Positions 6,683 through 16,398 are shown, counted from the stretch's first letter. The stretch: 64,000 bases of DNA from Nocardiopsis mwathae (GCF_014201195.1 NZ_JACHDS010000001.1:1612001-1676000), one strand, 5' to 3'. The notes: a model not told the origin generated them from the letters alone. Made by a program: numbers and translations.

Positions 6683-7621
6683 ATGACCGACCAGCAGCGG
6701 GCCGTGGAGACGTCCCGCCCGTCACCCGCACCCGCCCCGAACGGCGGCACCGACCGCCCGGGCGCTGCCGACGACGCCGCGCGGACCGCCCCGGAGCCGC
6801 CGCAGGCCGCCGCGGACCGCGGTGCCGACGGTTCGCACGGCGCCGACGGCTCGAACGGCTCGAACGGCGCGGCGGGTCCGCGGCGGGACGGCGCCGACGG
6901 TGCGCCGGAGCCCTCGGAGAACGGGGAGCAGCCGCAGGTCTCCGAGCAGACGGTCGAGGCCGTGGTGCGCGCCCAGCTGTCCAAGGCACTGGGCGGCAAG
7001 CGCGGCATGGTGGAGGCCGCGGTCCCCACCATCGCCTTCACCGTCACCTACATCGTCTCCCAGCACCTCCAGCTGGCGCTGGGCCTGGGGGTCGGCGCGG
7101 CGGTGGCACTGGCGCTCGTGCGGATCGTGCAGCGCTCCTCGGTCCAGTTCGTGTTCAACAGCCTCTTCGGCATCGGCATCGCGGCGATCTTCGCGCTGCG
7201 CAGCGGTGAGGCCGAGGACGCGTTCCTGCCGGGCATCATCTACAACGCGGTCTACGCGCTCGTGCTCATCGGGACCATCGTCATCCGCTGGCCGGCCGTG
7301 GGCCTGCTGATCGGCTCGGTCACCGGCGATCCCACCGGATGGCGGGACAACCCCGCCGTGGTCAAGCTCAGCTCCCGGCTGACCTGGCTGCTGGTGCTGC
7401 CCTGCGTCATCCGAGTGGCCGTGCAGTACCCGCTGTGGGCGGCGGCGAGCTACGGCATCGCCGACACCTTCGCCCTGCTGGGCATCGCCAAGATCGCGAT
7501 GGGCTGGCCGCTGCAGGTGGCGGCCCTGGCCGCCATGGTGTGGCTGCTGGCCCGCGGCCGTACCGCGATGGACGGCCCCACCCTCGCGCCGCCGCGCGAC
7601 CGCGACGGCGACGGCACTTGA
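6683..7621 (+). CDS. DUF3159 family membrane protein
   Basis: 312-aa integral membrane protein of the actinobacterial DUF3159 family; the function is unknown. Residues 1-95 are a low-complexity, hydrophilic tail rich in Gly, Asp, Ala and Pro, with collagen-like GADG and GSNG repeats. The conserved domain follows, starting at LGGKRGMVEAAVPTIAF and carrying about five hydrophobic helices. ATG 6683 follows a purine-rich stretch. In many actinomycetes this gene sits next to the paired TrkA genes, as here, which suggests a link to membrane or ion homeostasis; this is inference from position only. Confidence 0.88.
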   Translation: MTDQQRAVETSRPSPAPAPNGGTDRPGAADDAARTAPEPPQAAADRGADGSHGADGSNGSNGAAGPRRDGADGAPEPSENGEQPQVSEQTVEAVVRAQLSKALGGKRGMVEAAVPTIAFTVTYIVSQHLQLALGLGVGAAVALALVRIVQRSSVQFVFNSLFGIGIAAIFALRSGEAEDAFLPGIIYNAVYALVLIGTIVIRWPAVGLLIGSVTGDPTGWRDNPAVVKLSSRLTWLLVLPCVIRVAVQYPLWAAASYGIADTFALLGIAKIAMGWPLQVAALAAMVWLLARGRTAMDGPTLAPPRDRDGDGT

Positions 7622-7634
7622 GCCCGTGTCCCCC

Positions 7635-7699
7635 CCGATGACCTCGGGAGGCCGGTCGTCATTCTCCGGGAATGCGAACCGGACTCCCGAGATCATCGG
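7635..7699. terminator. Bidirectional hairpin between convergent genes
   Basis: 16-bp inverted repeat: CCGATGACCTCGGGAG at 7635-7650 and CTCCCGAGATCATCGG at 7684-7699. One mismatch becomes a G-U pair in one strand, and the loop is 33 nt. It lies between the DUF3159 stop (7621) and the end of the convergent TrkA gene (7780). Confidence 0.65.
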
Positions 7700-7704
7700 C
7701 CGGG

Positions 7705-7767
7705 AGGCCCAGTAGGCCCAGTAGGCCCAGTAGGCCCAGCAGGCCCAGTAGGCCCAGCAGGTCCGGT
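7705..7767. repeat. 9-bp tandem repeat (AGGCCCAGT)n
   Basis: Six consecutive units of AGGCCCAGT or AGGCCCAGC run from 7705 to 7758, with a degenerate seventh (AGGTCCGGT) to 7767. They lie immediately downstream of the hairpin and 12 bp from the end of the TrkA gene. A unit length divisible by three would keep a reading frame open, but no gene appears to use it. Confidence 0.85.
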
Positions 7768-7779
7768 CGGCCCGAGAGG

Positions 7780-8445
7780 TCAGGGAGCGAGGAGAAGCCC
7801 CAGTTCGTCCACGGAGTCGGTGCTGCTCAGGAAGACCAGGTCGTCGCCGGCCGCCAGGACGGTCTCCGGTGCCGGAGGCCGCACCCGGCCGTCGCGCACG
7901 AGCGCGACCAGGACGACCCCCTCGGGCAGGGCCGGGGCGAGCTCACCCACCGGGCGCCCCGCGTGCGGGGTGTCCGGTGGAAGCGTGAACTCCAGCAGGT
8001 CGGTCTCGGGCAGGGACACCGGCGCCATCGCGTCACCGCCATCGGTGATCGCGGCGACGTCGTCCACCAGCGAGGCGATCAGGCGCGGCGGCGAAACCGC
8101 CACGTCCACCCCCCAGTCGTCGGTGAACAGCCACTCGTTGCCCGGGTCGTTGATCCGGGCGATCGTGCGGTCCACCCCGAACTCCTTCTTCGCCAGCAGG
8201 CACACCACGAGGTTGACCTTGTCGTCGCTGCTGGCGGCGACGACCGTGTCGAAGTCGCCCAGCCGCGCGTCCTCCAGCGTGGACAGCTCGCAGGCGTCGG
8301 CCAGCATCCACTCCGCGCGCGGCAGCTCGTCCACGCCGATGGCGCGCGTGTCCCGGTCGATGAGCAGAACCTCGTGCCCGCTCTCACTCAGCTCGGCGGC
8401 GATGGAACGCCCCACGCTTCCGGCTCCGGCGATCGCGACCCGCAT
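7780..8445 (-). CDS. TrkA family potassium uptake protein (second subunit)
   Basis: 221-aa cytoplasmic regulator of a Trk/Ktr K+ channel. It has an N-terminal RCK Rossmann domain with GAGSVGRSIA for NAD(H) or nucleotide binding and the acidic DRD after strand 2, and a C-terminal RCK-C domain (about residues 140-221, ending DDLVFLSSTDSVDELG). ATG 8445 is 3 nt past the stop of the upstream paralog, so the two are translated as a pair, as in the actinobacterial ceoB-ceoC arrangement. No TrkH/TrkG membrane subunit lies nearby. Confidence 0.92.
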   Translation of the reverse strand: MRVAIAGAGSVGRSIAAELSESGHEVLLIDRDTRAIGVDELPRAEWMLADACELSTLEDARLGDFDTVVAASSDDKVNLVVCLLAKKEFGVDRTIARINDPGNEWLFTDDWGVDVAVSPPRLIASLVDDVAAITDGGDAMAPVSLPETDLLEFTLPPDTPHAGRPVGELAPALPEGVVLVALVRDGRVRPPAPETVLAAGDDLVFLSSTDSVDELGLLLAP

Positions 8446-8448
8446 CGC

Positions 8449-9132
8449 CTACACCCCCTGGTCTTCGCTCGCGCGGGCGCTCAGCCGCGCCTGCAGGCCG
8501 TCGATGTCGGCGGCGCGGGCGAGGATGTGCAGTACGTCCCCGGCCCGCATCGTCTCGTCCCCGCGCGGTAGCAGGATCTCGCCGCCGCGTGAGAGGTAGG
8601 CCACGCGCAGCGGCAGTGCGGACTCCAGCTGCTCCACGCGCTGCCCCACCCAGGGGTGGGAGAGCGGAGCCTCGGTCATCAGCAGACTGCCCGACGGGTC
8701 GCGCCACAGCGGGGCCAGCTCCAGCCCCTCCGACCCCGGGACGAGGCGCCGCAGCACGGTGTCGGCGGTCCACCGCACCGTGCCGACGGTCGGGATGCCG
8801 AGCCGCTGGTAGACCTCGGCGCGCCGCGGGTCGTAGATGCGGGCGACCACGTTCTCCACGCCGAACACCTCGCGGGCGACCCGCGCGGCGATGATGTTGG
8901 AGTTGTCGCCGCTGCTCACGGCGGCGAACGCGGCGGCCGACGCGATGCCCGCGGCGATGAGCGCGTCACGGTCGTGGCCGATGCCGTGGACCGCCGTCTT
9001 GGCGGTCGAGGAACGCAGCCGCCGGAACGCGTCGGGGTCCCTGTCGATCACCGCGACCGTGTGCCCCATGTCCTCCAGCGTGTGCGCGAGGGTGGAACCC
9101 ACCCGGCCGCAGCCAAGTATGACGATGTGCAC
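8449..9132 (-). CDS. TrkA family potassium uptake protein (first subunit)
   Basis: 227-aa RCK protein with the Rossmann motif GCGRVGSTLA and DRDPDAF near the N terminus, then a C-terminal RCK-C domain (about residues 140-227). It is paralogous to the downstream gene; the two probably form a hetero-oligomeric ring that gates K+ uptake in response to NAD(H) or ATP. ATG 9132 is the first codon of the domain. Its promoter must lie in the 205-bp spacer shared with the divergent RNA methyltransferase gene. Confidence 0.92.
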   Translation of the reverse strand: MHIVILGCGRVGSTLAHTLEDMGHTVAVIDRDPDAFRRLRSSTAKTAVHGIGHDRDALIAAGIASAAAFAAVSSGDNSNIIAARVAREVFGVENVVARIYDPRRAEVYQRLGIPTVGTVRWTADTVLRRLVPGSEGLELAPLWRDPSGSLLMTEAPLSHPWVGQRVEQLESALPLRVAYLSRGGEILLPRGDETMRAGDVLHILARAADIDGLQARLSARASEDQGV

Positions 9133-10617: not shown

Positions 10618-10682
10618 GCGATGATCATGGCGAAAGGCGTCGATTTCGTCCGCTTTCTCCGAGCGTTCGCCATGGTCATCGC
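10618..10682. terminator. Bidirectional hairpin between convergent genes
   Basis: 17-bp inverted repeat: GCGATGATCATGGCGAA at 10618-10634 and TTCGCCATGGTCATCGC at 10666-10682, with one G-U-compatible mismatch and a 31-nt loop. It lies 11 nt after the methyltransferase stop and 12 nt from the end of the convergent operon. Its size and CGATGA ends resemble the hairpin at 7635-7699. Confidence 0.65.
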
Positions 10683-10694
10683 GGAAGGGGAGGC

Positions 10695-12326
10695 TCACCG
10701 GCAGGGCGGGGCCGCGCTGTCCGGAACGGGGGCGACCAGGGCGAAGTCGGCCTCCTCAGGCGCGTCCTCCGGCTCGTCGCCGCGCCAGGCCTCGACGAAC
10801 TCGGCGGCGCGTCGGCGGTGGGTGTCGGTGACGTCGATGCCGAGCAGCCGGGCCGCCTCGTCGGCGCCGGTGCCGGGGGAGACCAGCCGCTCCCAGTGCG
10901 CCTCCAAGCCCCGGGCGACCCGCTGCTCCGGGGCGTCGAGCAGGGCGACCGCGACGGCGGCCTGCTCGGTGTCCCGCGCCGTCCACCGGTTCTCGTACAG
11001 GGCGTTGAAGAGCAGCTCGGTGTCGTGCGACCCCCGGGCGACGAGCCACAGGTACACCGGCAGCCGGGCCTGTCCGCGGATGCTGCAGTCGTACTCGCGG
11101 TAGGTGCGCAGGCCGAGCGCGGGCAGCGCGATCTGCTCGGCGAGGTCCAGCCGGGGTGTCTCCTCGGCGGGGTCCCAGTAGTCGATGGGTGTGGCCAGGC
11201 CGTCCCGCAACGCGTCGGCCTCGCCGTTCCAGGGGTAGCGGCCGAAGGTCTGCTGGACCACGCGCGGCACGTCGCCGCGCGCCCGGCGGGGCAGCGCCGC
11301 GGCGACGGGGGCGGCCGCCGCGTGCCAGTAGGGGATCCACTGCTCGTAGCCGGCGTAGGCGCAGTAGGTGATACCCCCGCGGGTCCGGCACGTGTGGTCG
11401 GGCACCGGCCCGGCCCACGGCGCGTAGGAGCCGACGTCCATCTCGTAGTCGTTCATGCGGCGCCCGTCCTCGTAGCGCTGCGTGTAGGCGGCGGCCGATC
11501 CGGTCAGGCACACGGCGGCCAGCGCGGCCGTGAGCGCCCGGCCCCACCCCCCGGACTGGTGGCGCAGCAGGGCGAGGGCGGCCGCAGCCGCCAGAGCGAG
11601 TCCGAGGTAGACGAGGTGGGCGGGGGCGAGCCACCAGTAGCCGGGGCTGTAGTAGCTGCCGGGCTGCAGCAGTGCGTCCGCGACGCCGCCGATCTGGAAC
11701 ACGCCGGGGATCGCCGTGGCGTCGACGACGCGGACGTCGACCGTGAGCAGCTCGTTGGCGGCTACCAGGAGGATCAGGGCGGGCACCATGAGCCATGACC
11801 GCGTCCACACCCCGACCAGCACACCGACGGTGCCGCCGAGCGCCGAGACCAGCAGCGGCAGGGCGAACGCGGCGGGCGTGACCGAACCCGCGAGCGGCGC
11901 CGGGCCCGACGTCCAGACCAGCACCGCGTAGGGGATGAGGAAGAGCACGGCACCGCCGATCGCGGCGGCGACCAGCAGCGCGGTCAGCCGCGCCCGCCGG
12001 GCCACGGGCAGGGCGGTCCCACCGGTGTAGCGGACCTCCCGCACGGCCGCCGGCAGCGCGGCCACGAACATCCCGGCGCCGGTGATCGCGGAGCCGACCA
12101 GTGCGATGTCGAGGATGCTCCCCCAGTGCGCCAGTTCGGGGCGGTCGAGGTCGCGCAGCGACACGTAGGCGACCGCGAGCCACGGGGCGGGGTTGCGCGC
12201 CAGGCGGGTGAGCTCGAAGGCGACCAGCCGAGCCAGGGACACCAGGGACACCAGGGACGCGATCCGCCGTACACCACCGGGATCCGCCTCACCGGCAGGG
12301 CGGCAGGTCGGGATCGGCGTTCTCAT
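10695..12326 (-). CDS. ABC-2-like membrane protein with extracytoplasmic domain (paralog B)
   Basis: 543-aa protein and last gene of the sigma/anti-sigma/ABC operon. The N-terminal half has about six hydrophobic helices in an ABC-2 permease-like pattern. A hydrophilic C-terminal domain of about 260 residues contains the conserved segment GGITYCAYAGYEQWIPYW preceded by another Cys (DHTCRTRG), and the protein ends PPCR. The same segment occurs in the gene immediately upstream, so the two are tandem paralogs. ATG 12326 is chosen because GAGGAG lies 10 nt upstream; it overlaps the previous gene by 38 nt. It probably forms the membrane part of an exporter with the ATPase; the substrate is unknown. 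Confidence 0.75.
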   Translation of the reverse strand: MRTPIPTCRPAGEADPGGVRRIASLVSLVSLARLVAFELTRLARNPAPWLAVAYVSLRDLDRPELAHWGSILDIALVGSAITGAGMFVAALPAAVREVRYTGGTALPVARRARLTALLVAAAIGGAVLFLIPYAVLVWTSGPAPLAGSVTPAAFALPLLVSALGGTVGVLVGVWTRSWLMVPALILLVAANELLTVDVRVVDATAIPGVFQIGGVADALLQPGSYYSPGYWWLAPAHLVYLGLALAAAAALALLRHQSGGWGRALTAALAAVCLTGSAAAYTQRYEDGRRMNDYEMDVGSYAPWAGPVPDHTCRTRGGITYCAYAGYEQWIPYWHAAAAPVAAALPRRARGDVPRVVQQTFGRYPWNGEADALRDGLATPIDYWDPAEETPRLDLAEQIALPALGLRTYREYDCSIRGQARLPVYLWLVARGSHDTELLFNALYENRWTARDTEQAAVAVALLDAPEQRVARGLEAHWERLVSPGTGADEAARLLGIDVTDTHRRRAAEFVEAWRGDEPEDAPEEADFALVAPVPDSAAPPCR

Positions 12327-13851
12327 CGGCGGCGTTCTCCTCATCCAGCAGGGTGAACTCGGAGGTGTGATCGGCGACGTAGATCCGGTCGAGTTCCTCT
12401 TCGGCGCGCGCCCGGTGGGCGTCGGTCACGTCGACGCCGAGCAGCCGGGCGGCGTCGGCCGACGTGGCGTCAGGCGAGGTTAGCCGCTCCCAGTGCCGGT
12501 CCAGTCCGCGGACGATCCGGTCCTCGGGGGCCTCCGCCAGGGCGAGGGCGGTCGCGATGTCCTCGGTCCTGGCGCCGGTGGCGTCCTCGCCCCAGACGGT
12601 CCACATCCCCTGGTCGGCCTCGTCGGGGGCGGGCCTGGTGGCGAGCCAGAAGTACAGCGGAAGGCGCGCCTGGCCGCGCAGCGTGCACTCGCCGTAGTGC
12701 CACCTCTCGGGCAGACCCAGTGTGAGTTGGACGAACTGGGTGGCCAGGTCCTGCTCGCTCCAGAGGGGGTCGGTGTCCCAGATCTCGACGGGAACGGCGA
12801 CACCGTCGAGAACAGTCGCCTGCGGGCTCTCGAAACTCTGCAGGGCGACCTCCGGCAGGTCGGCGCGCTGGGTGGGCGGCAGGGCCGCAACGACCGGTTC
12901 CACGGCCCGCCGCCAGTAGGGGATCCACCGCTCATAGCCGGCGTAGCCGCAGTACGTCACGCCGTCGTGGTCTTCGCACACGCGCTCCGGGACGGCGACC
13001 CAGCTCGGGATATCGGGGCCTTCCCCGGACCACAGGTCGCCCTGCGACCGCTGGTCGGTATAGGCGGCGGCCACTCCGGCCAGCAGCAGGACGGTGAGCC
13101 CGGCGGCGGTGGCCCGCCGCCGCAGACCGGGCAGCGAGCGCAGGACCGCGGCGGCGTACCCCGCGGCGATGAGGCAGAGGAGCTGCACCACGTGGACCGC
13201 CGGGATCCCCCAGAGGGACGAGTAGCCGTCGGCCTGGGGCCGCAGCAGGGCGTCGGCCGCCGTGTAGGCCGCGGCCGCGCCGGCCGCCGGCGCGTCGACC
13301 AGCGTCGATCCGACGTTCATGAACTCGGCCAGGAACAGGTAGCTCGGGATGACCAGCACCGGCACCAGGGCGGGGAGCAGCGACCTGGTCCAGGTGCCGA
13401 TCAGCACCCCGGCGACCCCTCCGGCGGCCGCGATCAGCGGCGGAGTGGCGAGTTCTGCCGGGGTCAGTGTGCCGGCGACCTCGGCGGGGTTCACGAACAG
13501 CGGCACCGTCGCCCAGGGCAGCGCGCCCAGAGCCGCGCCGCACAGCGTGACGGCGGCCAGCAGAGCGATCGAGCGCTGCACGGGCCCCAGCGGCGCGGTG
13601 ACGGCGCCTCCGTAGCGGGCGTCCCGCACCGCGGGGAAGAGCCCGGCCAGGAACATGGCCGCGGCGGCCATCTCGCTGATCTGGATCGCCTCACGGGCCA
13701 GTGCTCCCCAGGCCTGAAGCTGGCCGGTGTCGCCGCGGCCGCTGGGCAGCCCCTGCAGGAGGATGATCCCGGCGACCGCGAGCCAGACGAACGGGCTCCG
13801 CACCAGCCGCTTGGCATAGAACCAGGTCAGCCGTGCGATGGACATCGTCAT
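12289..13851 (-). CDS. ABC-2-like membrane protein with extracytoplasmic domain (paralog A)
   Basis: 520-aa membrane protein. The N terminus MTMSIARLTWFYAKRL is followed by six hydrophobic segments up to about residue 250, then a soluble C-terminal domain. That domain has a Cys pair in VCEDHDGVTYCGYAGYERW and two further conserved stretches shared with paralog B (ECTLRGQARLPLYFWL, HWERLTSP). ATG 13851 overlaps the ATPase stop as ATGA. The two paralogs could form a heterodimeric permease. If the soluble domain faces outward, its Cys residues may form a disulfide. Substrate and direction of transport are unknown. Confidence 0.78.
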   Translation of the reverse strand: MTMSIARLTWFYAKRLVRSPFVWLAVAGIILLQGLPSGRGDTGQLQAWGALAREAIQISEMAAAAMFLAGLFPAVRDARYGGAVTAPLGPVQRSIALLAAVTLCGAALGALPWATVPLFVNPAEVAGTLTPAELATPPLIAAAGGVAGVLIGTWTRSLLPALVPVLVIPSYLFLAEFMNVGSTLVDAPAAGAAAAYTAADALLRPQADGYSSLWGIPAVHVVQLLCLIAAGYAAAVLRSLPGLRRRATAAGLTVLLLAGVAAAYTDQRSQGDLWSGEGPDIPSWVAVPERVCEDHDGVTYCGYAGYERWIPYWRRAVEPVVAALPPTQRADLPEVALQSFESPQATVLDGVAVPVEIWDTDPLWSEQDLATQFVQLTLGLPERWHYGECTLRGQARLPLYFWLATRPAPDEADQGMWTVWGEDATGARTEDIATALALAEAPEDRIVRGLDRHWERLTSPDATSADAARLLGVDVTDAHRARAEEELDRIYVADHTSEFTLLDEENAADENADPDLPPCR

Positions 13852-14813
13852 GTGAGACCCGGGCCCGCCGTCCCGCGTCCTGCCGTGTCCCCGGTCCTGG
13901 CCGTGTCGGCCGCGCCGGTCAGCAGCAGGTAGCCGTCCTCCAGGGTGGGCTCGACCGGTTCCGCGGACTCCTCGTAGCCCTCCGGCGGCCGCGTCGCGTC
14001 CGGGGTCAGCACGCGGTACCGGCCGTCGGGCCGCCGCCACGTCGTGGTCCCCGCCGAGGGCCGCTCGGGCAGTGACCACACGTGCCCGTGCGCCCGCCCG
14101 ATGAGCTCGGCGGGGGTGCCGGTGAACACCAGCCGCCCCTCGTCCAGCACGACGACGCGGTTGCACAGCGCCTCGACGTCCTCGATCTGGTGGGTGGACA
14201 GGACGACCGTGCGCGTCGTGGCGAACTCCGAGACCAGGTCGCGGAAGCGGATCCGCTGCTCGGGGTCGAGCCCGATGGTGGGCTCGTCCAGCAGCAGCAG
14301 CCGAGGCTCGCCCAGCAGCGCACCGGCCAGTGCGAGCCGCTGCTTCATTCCGCCCGACAGGCGGCGCACCCGGCTGAAGCGGCGGTCGTACAGCCCCACC
14401 AGGCCCAGTACCCGGCGCACCTCGTCGTGCCGCCGCCTGCGCCCGCCCAGCTCCTTGAGCACGGCGATGTAGTCCAGCAGGCCGAACGCGGTGAAGTGCG
14501 GGTACAGTGTCGGGTTCTGCGGCAGGTGGCCGAGCCGCCGGCGGATCTCGGTCCGGTCCGCGGCCCGTTCCGGGTTGAGGCCGAGGATCTCCAGGCGGCC
14601 GCCGGTGGGGTCCAGGTCGGTCGCCAGGCAGCGCAGCAGCGTGGTCTTGCCCGCTCCGTTACGCCCCAGCAGGCCGGTCACCCCCGTGCCGAGCTCCAGC
14701 GTGAGGTCGCTCAGGGCGGCGCGCAGTCCGTAGCGCCGCGTCACCCCCTGTGCGGAGACGGTGGTGCCGAGCCCGGGGCACGCGGGCGTCGCGTGTGCGG
14801 TGGATGTGGTCAT
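13848..14813 (-). CDS. ABC transporter ATP-binding protein
   Basis: 321-aa nucleotide-binding subunit. It has Walker A GRNGAGKTT, a Q-loop in LGHLPQNPTLYP, signature LSGGMKQRLALA, Walker B LLLLDEPTIGLD and H-loop STHQIED, the full set of an ABC-2/DrrA-type exporter ATPase. After the core (about residue 235) an 85-residue extension ends in a Thr/Gly-rich tail and is less conserved. Start and stop overlap the neighbouring genes by 4 nt each, so translation is coupled across the operon. Its partners are the two downstream membrane proteins. Confidence 0.92.
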   Translation of the reverse strand: MTTSTAHATPACPGLGTTVSAQGVTRRYGLRAALSDLTLELGTGVTGLLGRNGAGKTTLLRCLATDLDPTGGRLEILGLNPERAADRTEIRRRLGHLPQNPTLYPHFTAFGLLDYIAVLKELGGRRRRHDEVRRVLGLVGLYDRRFSRVRRLSGGMKQRLALAGALLGEPRLLLLDEPTIGLDPEQRIRFRDLVSEFATTRTVVLSTHQIEDVEALCNRVVVLDEGRLVFTGTPAELIGRAHGHVWSLPERPSAGTTTWRRPDGRYRVLTPDATRPPEGYEESAEPVEPTLEDGYLLLTGAADTARTGDTAGRGTAGPGLT

Positions 14814-15625
14814 TCGGACCACCCGTGCCGCATCCGCAGGACCGCGAACGATCCGGCCATCAGGAGGAACGCCGCGGCCCACAGCGCCTGGGCGTGCGGG
14901 GCGAACAGCTGCTCGGGCCGCAGATGCTGGGCCGCGGTCGTCAGCGTCAGCGACGCCAGCCAGCCACCGGCCAAAAGAGCGCTGGCCAGGGTGAGGTTCA
15001 CCCATCGCGACAGCGTCAGCGACGCCGCGACCAGGGTCAGCGCCGGGAGCAGCCAGGCGATCGGAGCCCAGTCGGGACCTGCGGTGCCGGGCAGCAGCAG
15101 GGCGGCGACCGTGCACAGTGTGAACGCGGGGATGAGCACCGCCATGGCGCGCAGGAACAGCAGCCGCTGACCGCCCATCGGGGTCACCGAGGTGAATTCG
15201 TGTGCTGGGTCCACGCCCCGGCCGTAGGCCAGGGCCACGCCGACCAGCGGGAGAACCGGGGCCAGGAAATAGAACATCAGCGAACCGTGCGGGACCGTGT
15301 GCGCGGCGACCAGGGCCGTGCCCAGGACCGCCACCATCGCGATCAGCCACGCGCGGTAGAGCGCCGGTGTGGCGACCAGGAGCCGTGCGGTGGACTCGTT
15401 GAGCCCGCACGCCTCCAGTGCGCGTTCCAGCAGGCTGCGTCGGGGGCGGTCGACGATGTCGCGCAGCTGCGCCCAGCTCGCCTCCAGCCACTGTTCGTCG
15501 GTCGGCAGGTCGTTGCGGCAGGTCGCACAGTGCATCAGGTGGGCCTCCGCGGACATCGCCGAAGCGTCGTCCGCACGTCCGGCGGCATAGTCCGCGAGTT
15601 GCCGGGATGTGAGATGCCAGGTCAT
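14810..15625 (-). CDS. Polytopic zinc-finger anti-sigma factor
   Basis: 271-aa protein with an N-terminal zf-HC2/ZAS domain: the zinc motif H-x3-C-x2-C appears as HLMHCATC near residue 30. After a cytoplasmic linker come six hydrophobic helices, roughly residues 85-265. Most ZAS anti-sigma factors have one membrane helix, so the six-helix membrane part is unusual and resembles an ABC-2-like or sensory membrane domain. The ATG overlaps the sigma-factor stop by 4 nt. It should hold the ECF sigma factor inactive at the membrane until a signal, possibly from the co-encoded transporter, releases it. Confidence 0.85.
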   Translation of the reverse strand: MTWHLTSRQLADYAAGRADDASAMSAEAHLMHCATCRNDLPTDEQWLEASWAQLRDIVDRPRRSLLERALEACGLNESTARLLVATPALYRAWLIAMVAVLGTALVAAHTVPHGSLMFYFLAPVLPLVGVALAYGRGVDPAHEFTSVTPMGGQRLLFLRAMAVLIPAFTLCTVAALLLPGTAGPDWAPIAWLLPALTLVAASLTLSRWVNLTLASALLAGGWLASLTLTTAAQHLRPEQLFAPHAQALWAAAFLLMAGSFAVLRMRHGWSE

Positions 15626-16206
15626 GTCAGCTGCTCCCGGAGTTGGGCCTTGGCCCGCATGACACGGGTCTTGACGGTGCCTTCGGGGATCTGGAGCATC
15701 AGCGCGGCCTCCCGCACGGTCAGCCCGTCCAGGATGGTGGCCTGGATGGCCAGGCGCAGCTCCGGGGAGAGGTTGTTCAGCGCCACACCGAGCGGGCCGT
15801 GCTCGATACGGAGCAGCACCAGGTCCTCCGCCGAAGCCTCGCCCACGGGCTCGTAGGGCTCCGGGTCGGTGTCGCCGATCCACTGGTTGGCGCGCCGGCG
15901 CAGCTGCGAGATGAGCTGGCGGATGGCGATCGTCCAGATCCACGCGCCGGCGTCGCCGTCGGCGTCGCGGGGGGTGAACGTCCTGGCGTTCTTCCAGACC
16001 GCGAGGAACGTCTCCTGCAGGGCGGCGTCGACCAGGTCGGGATCGCTGCACCGGTAGCGCAGGCGCGCCCGCAGCCAGGGGGCGTGCCTGCGGTGCAGGT
16101 GCTCCAGGGCGGAGGAGTCACCGCACGCGACCGCGGCGAGCAGCTCGGCGTCCGAGCCGTCGGGGTCGTAGTCGGGGGTGCGCTTGGCACGTCGGAACAG
16201 CTTCAC
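15622..16206 (-). CDS. ECF-type RNA polymerase sigma factor
   Basis: 194-aa sigma factor with only regions 2 and 4. Region 2 includes LQETFLAVWKNARTF and the core-binding WIWTIAIRQLISQLRRR. Region 4 has a helix-turn-helix GLTVREAALMLQIPEGTVKTRVMRAKAQL. It is first in the five-gene operon. The cognate anti-sigma gene follows with an ATGA overlap. Such operons are typically autoregulated from the sigma promoter, which would lie in the 192-bp spacer upstream shared with the divergent LLM gene. The ECF subgroup is not assigned. Confidence 0.93.
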   Translation of the reverse strand: MKLFRRAKRTPDYDPDGSDAELLAAVACGDSSALEHLHRRHAPWLRARLRYRCSDPDLVDAALQETFLAVWKNARTFTPRDADGDAGAWIWTIAIRQLISQLRRRANQWIGDTDPEPYEPVGEASAEDLVLLRIEHGPLGVALNNLSPELRLAIQATILDGLTVREAALMLQIPEGTVKTRVMRAKAQLREQLT

Positions 16207-16398
16207 GTCGCTACTATCGCGCCTTCGGTCGGGATCGGTTCACCGGGAGGCGCAGGACCGGCGCCGACATTCGACGGTATCCGCTCCCCGCCGGCCGTGC
16301 ATCCGTGACCTGCGACGCAGCGCCGTCCGAGGCCGCGCCGTCACCCATTGCGAGTGTTCGGGTTTCCCGTTCCCCGTGTTGGTAGAACAATGGGGTGC

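Follow-up and report, generated by a model that had tools for sequence, protein, structure and literature searches.

The operon and its products

The window, which is the whole 64,000-nucleotide stretch of Nocardiopsis mwathae DNA that was analysed, carries on its minus strand at positions 10695-16206 a tight operon of five genes, transcribed in the order ECF sigma factor, anti-sigma factor, ABC ATPase, M1 and M2. The coordinates, strand and gene identities proposed in the initial annotation were confirmed, and the relevant features are as follows.

16214-16241, minus strand: ECF-type autoregulatory promoter GAACC-N17-CGATAG; the GTG that starts the sigma gene follows after 7 nt
15622-16206, minus strand: ECF sigma factor, 194 aa, GTG start; Pfam Sigma70_r2 and Sigma70_r4_2
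14810-15625, minus strand: anti-sigma factor, 271 aa; zf-HC2 zinc-binding domain (about residues 1-75) plus a six-helix membrane domain (about residues 78-270) with a predicted ABC-2 exporter fold
13848-14813, minus strand: ABC ATPase, 321 aa; full-length Pfam ABC_tran domain (3e-29) with Walker A, signature, Walker B and H-loop
12289-13851, minus strand: M1, 520 aa; predicted ABC-2 permease domain (1-244), TM7, and predicted extracytoplasmic M1-peptidase-like domain (277-496) without HEXXH
10695-12326, minus strand: M2, tandem paralogue of M1, 543 aa from a conserved ATG at 12326
10618-10682, no strand assigned: inverted repeat with 17-nt arms and a 31-nt loop, located by repeat search between the operon end and a convergent methyltransferase gene

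Membership of the first product in the ECF class was indicated by Sigma70_r2, Sigma70_r4_2 and the sigma70-ECF superfamily model, all of which scored above cut-off. ATGA overlaps, originally described at the starts of the first four junctions, were found at three (sigma/anti-sigma, anti-sigma/ATPase and ATPase/M1), the fourth junction (M1/M2) being a 38-nt overlap when the ATG at 12326 is taken as the start of M2. That start, and with it the 38-nt overlap first reported, is correct: in the sister species M2 likewise has an ATG at this point and an identical overlap with M1, while an ATG further upstream, at 12344, lacks a conserved counterpart. M1 and M2 are 40% identical over their full length; neither matched any Pfam or NCBIfam family, and a search of PDB sequences with M1 gave no match. 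Judged by names read from the sequence, the upstream divergent gene looks like an F420-type oxidoreductase and the downstream convergent gene like an RNA methyltransferase, with which the operon could possibly share a transcription end at the inverted repeat. A TrkA-like potassium-uptake gene also lies nearby (window positions 8449-9132).

Conservation of the gene order and of the promoter

The conserved unit consists of four genes: sigma, anti-sigma, ATPase and one M. Searches with M1 in related genomes yielded 20 loci. At 19 of them these genes follow one another in the order given, for the most part overlapping by 4 nt. Only a remnant is left at the twentieth, L029, where a single reading frame leads from the sigma start directly into the ATPase end, and a deletion had therefore taken out the middle: on the reverse strand of genome G006 (7159-8088) the N-terminal part of sigma continues in frame into the C-terminal part of the ATPase, and the M gene that follows is damaged.

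A single-sequence scan of genome contigs with M1 gave no match; an anti-sigma alignment succeeded instead, its profile detecting 371 loci in a collection that represents each species by a single genome. The 80 best of these 371, which were taken with names, include Nocardiopsis, Streptomonospora, Streptosporangiaceae, Streptomyces, Frankia, Nocardioides and Cellulomonas among others, and the four genes were detectable in order in about 75 of the 80. The remaining named loci (L071, L072, L074, L101 and L102) were either cut by a contig end, contained several broken frames, or had no recognisable M; in L072, from Nocardiopsis eucommiae, the sigma, anti-sigma and M genes are each split into several frames, owing either to decay of the module or to errors in sequencing. 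At 20 loci of greater divergence, sigma, anti-sigma and ATPase were without exception present in this order, and a recognisable M was present at 17. At the distant loci L089, L103 and L115, M is replaced by two tandem short permeases of about 275-290 aa that have no outer domain. The arrangement is not a matter of chance, since the gene order and the 4-nt overlaps recur in many genera; a search for the five-gene order in other actinomycetes had been advised in the initial annotation.

The same linkage was apparent when M served as the point of departure. Full-length M (E below 1e-80) was present in 32 of 395 genomes of the class examined, and in 31 of these 32 the coordinates placed an anti-sigma gene next to it, the exception being the deletion remnant. 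The pattern named in advance as contrary to a coupled system, namely ABC genes mostly occurring without the sigma pair, was consequently not the one observed. In Nocardiopsidaceae the module occupies a fixed site beside aconitase, and the stretch comprising aconitase, F420 oxidoreductase, module and TrkA is largely kept; in the Streptosporangiaceae and Streptomyces loci no aconitase neighbour was seen, and the gene order was still intact. The Walker A, signature, Walker B and H-loop motifs of the ATPase were intact in 76-77 of 77 relatives. A role as a defence system was considered and dropped, PADLOC having returned generic ATPase matches only.

A tree built from 45 M proteins placed M1 with the M1 of the sister species and M2 with its M2, and the two pairs joined each other (support 89/80). 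It follows from this topology that the tandem duplication most likely took place within, and is specific to, this genus. The five-gene form with two paralogues, as originally conceived, thus most likely derives, by duplication at the level of the genus, from a module of four genes whose core carries one M, and the two-paralogue design was rejected as an essential feature. A second M in Streptomyces humidus is of other origin.

The motif GAACC-N17-CGAT preceded the sigma gene in 65 of 78 loci, its CGAT lying 8-10 nt from the start codon and its spacer being 17 nt in every case though 16-18 were allowed; the expectation from shuffled sequences, which preserved base composition only, was 0.03. 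This implies that the operon is self-activated from GAACC-N17-CGAT, with a predicted leaderless mRNA. The exact motif is rare genome-wide, with four occurrences in this genome compared with one for a reversed-pattern control. GAACC-N17-CGATAG lies upstream of a DUF4184 membrane-protein gene in both species of the genus (L135, at G000:C1:2431175, and L134, in G001), and DUF6518 membrane-protein genes carry the motif of the sigma factor in five genomes of the family (L156, L159, L160, L162 and L144); in the first four of these loci the protein is a distant DUF6518 match, and an ATG follows the motif after 7 nt, the same spacing as for sigma. A Streptomyces-type motif was found upstream of kdpD in three of 12 module-positive genomes as against none of 10 module-negative ones, which are too few cases to claim kdpD as a regulon member and provide a lead only. 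The loci with the Streptomyces-type motif recorded for kdpD are L178, L182, L200 and L211; among these four, genome G152 has the motif before a response-regulator-like gene, and no close kdpD was found in that genome. At L203 (G141), a single case, the motif lies 43 nt upstream of a gene resembling glutamate decarboxylase. Several other matches to the motif were set aside as apparently lying within coding sequence.

Predicted structures of protein M and the anti-sigma factor

Both ABC-2 folds and the peptidase-like domain described below derive from structure models. The AF2 model of M1 (pLDDT 85.8, pTM 0.86) contains seven TM helices, and its membrane domain resembled six-TM ABC-2 permeases, with a VIA Z of 12.9 to NosY over 228 residues and a Foldseek probability of 0.99 for PmtD; the Pfam ABC2_membrane family was matched by only four of 71 M relatives. 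The outer domain (277-486) gave VIA Z values of 7.8 to ERAP2 and 7.6 to LTA4H over 177-183 residues, a borderline likeness to the fold of these M1 aminopeptidases. Protein M is accordingly predicted to comprise an ABC-2 permease, a seventh helix and an outer M1-aminopeptidase-like domain. It differs from the aminopeptidases themselves in that their HEXXH zinc site was found in none of the 71 relatives and four conserved cysteines are present instead: in M1 these are residues 292 and 301, both invariant, and 389 and 519, nearly so among the same relatives. The cysteine-containing motif first noticed in the two paralogues is indeed common to both, but its full form is C-x4-G-[VI]-T-Y-C-[GA]-Y-A-G-Y-E, in which the two cysteines are invariant and the first tyrosine is present in 97% of the 71 relatives, with the rest, including the YAGYE part, less fixed. 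In some distant lineages M has no outer domain, and its permease part remains clearly homologous (hhalign probability 99.7).

The anti-sigma factor matched zf-HC2 above cut-off, as did 71 of 72 relatives, and its zinc site, H29-x3-C33-x2-C36, conforms to the HxxxCxxC pattern of zinc-binding class I anti-sigma factors, with H29, C33 and C36 invariant in 72 rows. Residues 1-75 of the model align with the ChrR anti-sigma chain (VIA-align, Z 7.1), and the protein probably binds its cognate sigma factor and holds it at the membrane.

The remainder of the anti-sigma model (pLDDT 86) consists of six helices (residues 78-270), with no extracytoplasmic domain of its own. When these residues were compared with solved structures using VIA-align, the top 45 rows were all ABC permeases (Z 7.3-10.6), with matches including ABCA4, ABCG2, ABCG5, ABCG16, ABCG25 and NosY, and the first unrelated membrane row followed at Z 6.5; at Z 8-10.6, mostly 176-190 of the 193 residues were aligned. 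The comparison is suggestive of an ABC-2 (type V) exporter fold for the predicted model, but for a membrane domain made of helices a Z near 10 falls short of proof. Foldseek alone gave no match to the anti-sigma model below E = 0.001 and returned weak matches, many of them to ABC transporters. Since hhalign detected no homology signal between the anti-sigma membrane domain and the permease domain of M, and Pfam ABC-2 families matched none of the 72 anti-sigma factors, we claim similarity of predicted fold only and not proven descent. Among the most conserved parts of the membrane domain are its entry helix, which reads ARLL-x2-TP-x4-AWL, and the loop that connects helix 2 to helix 3, with YGR-x-VDPAHE and, after it, TP and R; in ABC-2 permeases these two regions are where the ATPase makes contact. 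A limited literature search, which is not proof of absence, found no earlier report of an anti-sigma factor fused to an ABC-2 domain.

Proposed coupling of the sigma factor to the transporter

On balance, and with reservations, we favour the view that these genes encode a self-activating, transporter-coupled ECF sigma module, a view that starts from the observed genes, order, overlaps, conservation and promoter motif, and in which the complex, its signal and the release of sigma by the state of the transporter are inferred. The zinc-finger domain of the anti-sigma factor would keep sigma at the membrane, while its membrane domain, through the predicted ABC-2 fold, would probably join the ATPase dimer and M (here M1 or M2) in one ABC complex. 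Outside the cell membrane, the peptidase-like domain of M, probably stabilised by disulfides, would probably bind a ligand; ligand binding or ATP-driven cycling would then shift the anti-sigma half and free the sigma factor, which would act at GAACC-N17-CGATAG to yield a leaderless transcript of its own operon and would also transcribe a few membrane-protein genes. A bolder form of the proposal, which we advance tentatively as having somewhat less than an even chance of being right, is that the anti-sigma factor is an obligate membrane half of an ABC exporter (ATPase2/anti-sigma-TMD/M), by which a sigma factor would be directly tethered to an active pump and the cycle or occupancy of that pump read into transcription in hundreds of actinobacterial species.

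In favour of coupling are the fixed gene order with mostly 4-nt overlaps, the position of M beside the anti-sigma gene, and the maintenance of this order in differing neighbourhoods; the ABC-2-like fold predicted for an anti-sigma factor with no outer domain of its own, alongside an M protein whose model matches NosY and PmtD; and the retained catalytic motifs of the ATPase and a conserved putative promoter in a leaderless position. Counting against it are the lack of detectable sequence homology between the anti-sigma membrane domain and the permease domain of M, the lack of Pfam ABC-2 matches and the weak Foldseek result; moreover, genomes with two M genes offer three candidate membrane subunits, so that the partner of M could be a second copy of M or the paralogue.

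The gene order is equally predicted by the main rival explanation, namely that the transporter is an output only: the anti-sigma factor alone would sense envelope stress or redox at HxxxCxxC, an exporter formed by M and the ATPase, its production raised by sigma, would remove the stressor, and the membrane part would be a plain anchor. An autoregulated promoter upstream of the entire operon and the invariant zinc-site residues both agree with this explanation, and ECF operons that combine a sigma factor, its anti-sigma factor and a target gene are common. We nevertheless regard it as rather unlikely: the many invariant or near-invariant residues of the membrane domain, clustered in the entry helix and helix 2-3 loop, exceed the needs of an anchor, that domain shows ABC-2 fold similarity, and the linkage is almost without exception. 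Less probable again is a complex of ATPase, anti-sigma factor and M that moves no substrate and signals by an ATP-driven, FtsEX-like shape change with the dead-peptidase domain as sensor, for although the intact ATPase motifs and the absence of catalytic HEXXH in 71 of 71 relatives would suit it, the module persists in distant lineages whose permease is devoid of the outer domain, and the core can therefore do without that domain.

The initial interpretation is partly supported: the ABC-2 exporter fold predicted for the membrane domain of the anti-sigma factor strengthens the case for a transporter-sensing unit, while sigma release by transport or occupancy stays inferred.

Sensing through a transporter has a precedent in the Bce-type BceAB-BceS-BceR system of Bacillus subtilis, in which the regulator is activated via the ABC transporter, with proposed flux sensing and positive feedback on the transporter genes (PMC10314905). 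In that system the histidine kinase is a protein of its own and BceB has 10 TM helices, whereas here an ECF sigma/anti-sigma pair is present, the anti-sigma factor itself being apparently a transporter half; there is no kinase in the operon, and the M model has seven TM helices. In FecI-FecR-FecA cell-surface signalling a transporter likewise controls an ECF sigma factor via an anti-sigma factor, as is proposed here, but the transporter concerned is an outer-membrane TonB-dependent importer of Gram-negatives and the parts are unrelated to those of this module. The sigY operon of Bacillus subtilis (sigY-yxlC-yxlD-yxlE-yxlF-yxlG), compared by description and not by sequence, similarly unites an ECF sigma factor, anti-sigma proteins and an ABC ATPase-permease pair; its anti-sigma proteins are small and separate, and we know of none fused to an ABC-2-fold domain. 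YxlF and YxlG are listed as an exporter and modelled as YxlF2G2 (PMC11466899). Exporters of the NosY, PmtD and ABCG type (type V, ABC-2) have the fold that is predicted both for M, with Z 12.9 to NosY, and for the membrane domain of the anti-sigma factor, with Z reaching 10.6, but possess neither an anti-sigma domain nor a peptidase-like outer domain.

Many membrane-bound anti-sigma factors of actinobacteria lack an outer sensor domain that would explain the way in which they sense their signal. The GAACC-N17-CGAT promoter should be usable as a reporter. Should the membrane part prove to be half of a transporter, a widespread class of anti-sigma factors would gain a concrete mechanism in which the pump is the sensor, and the module would represent an ECF counterpart of Bce flux sensing, with regulator and transporter subunit in one polypeptide.
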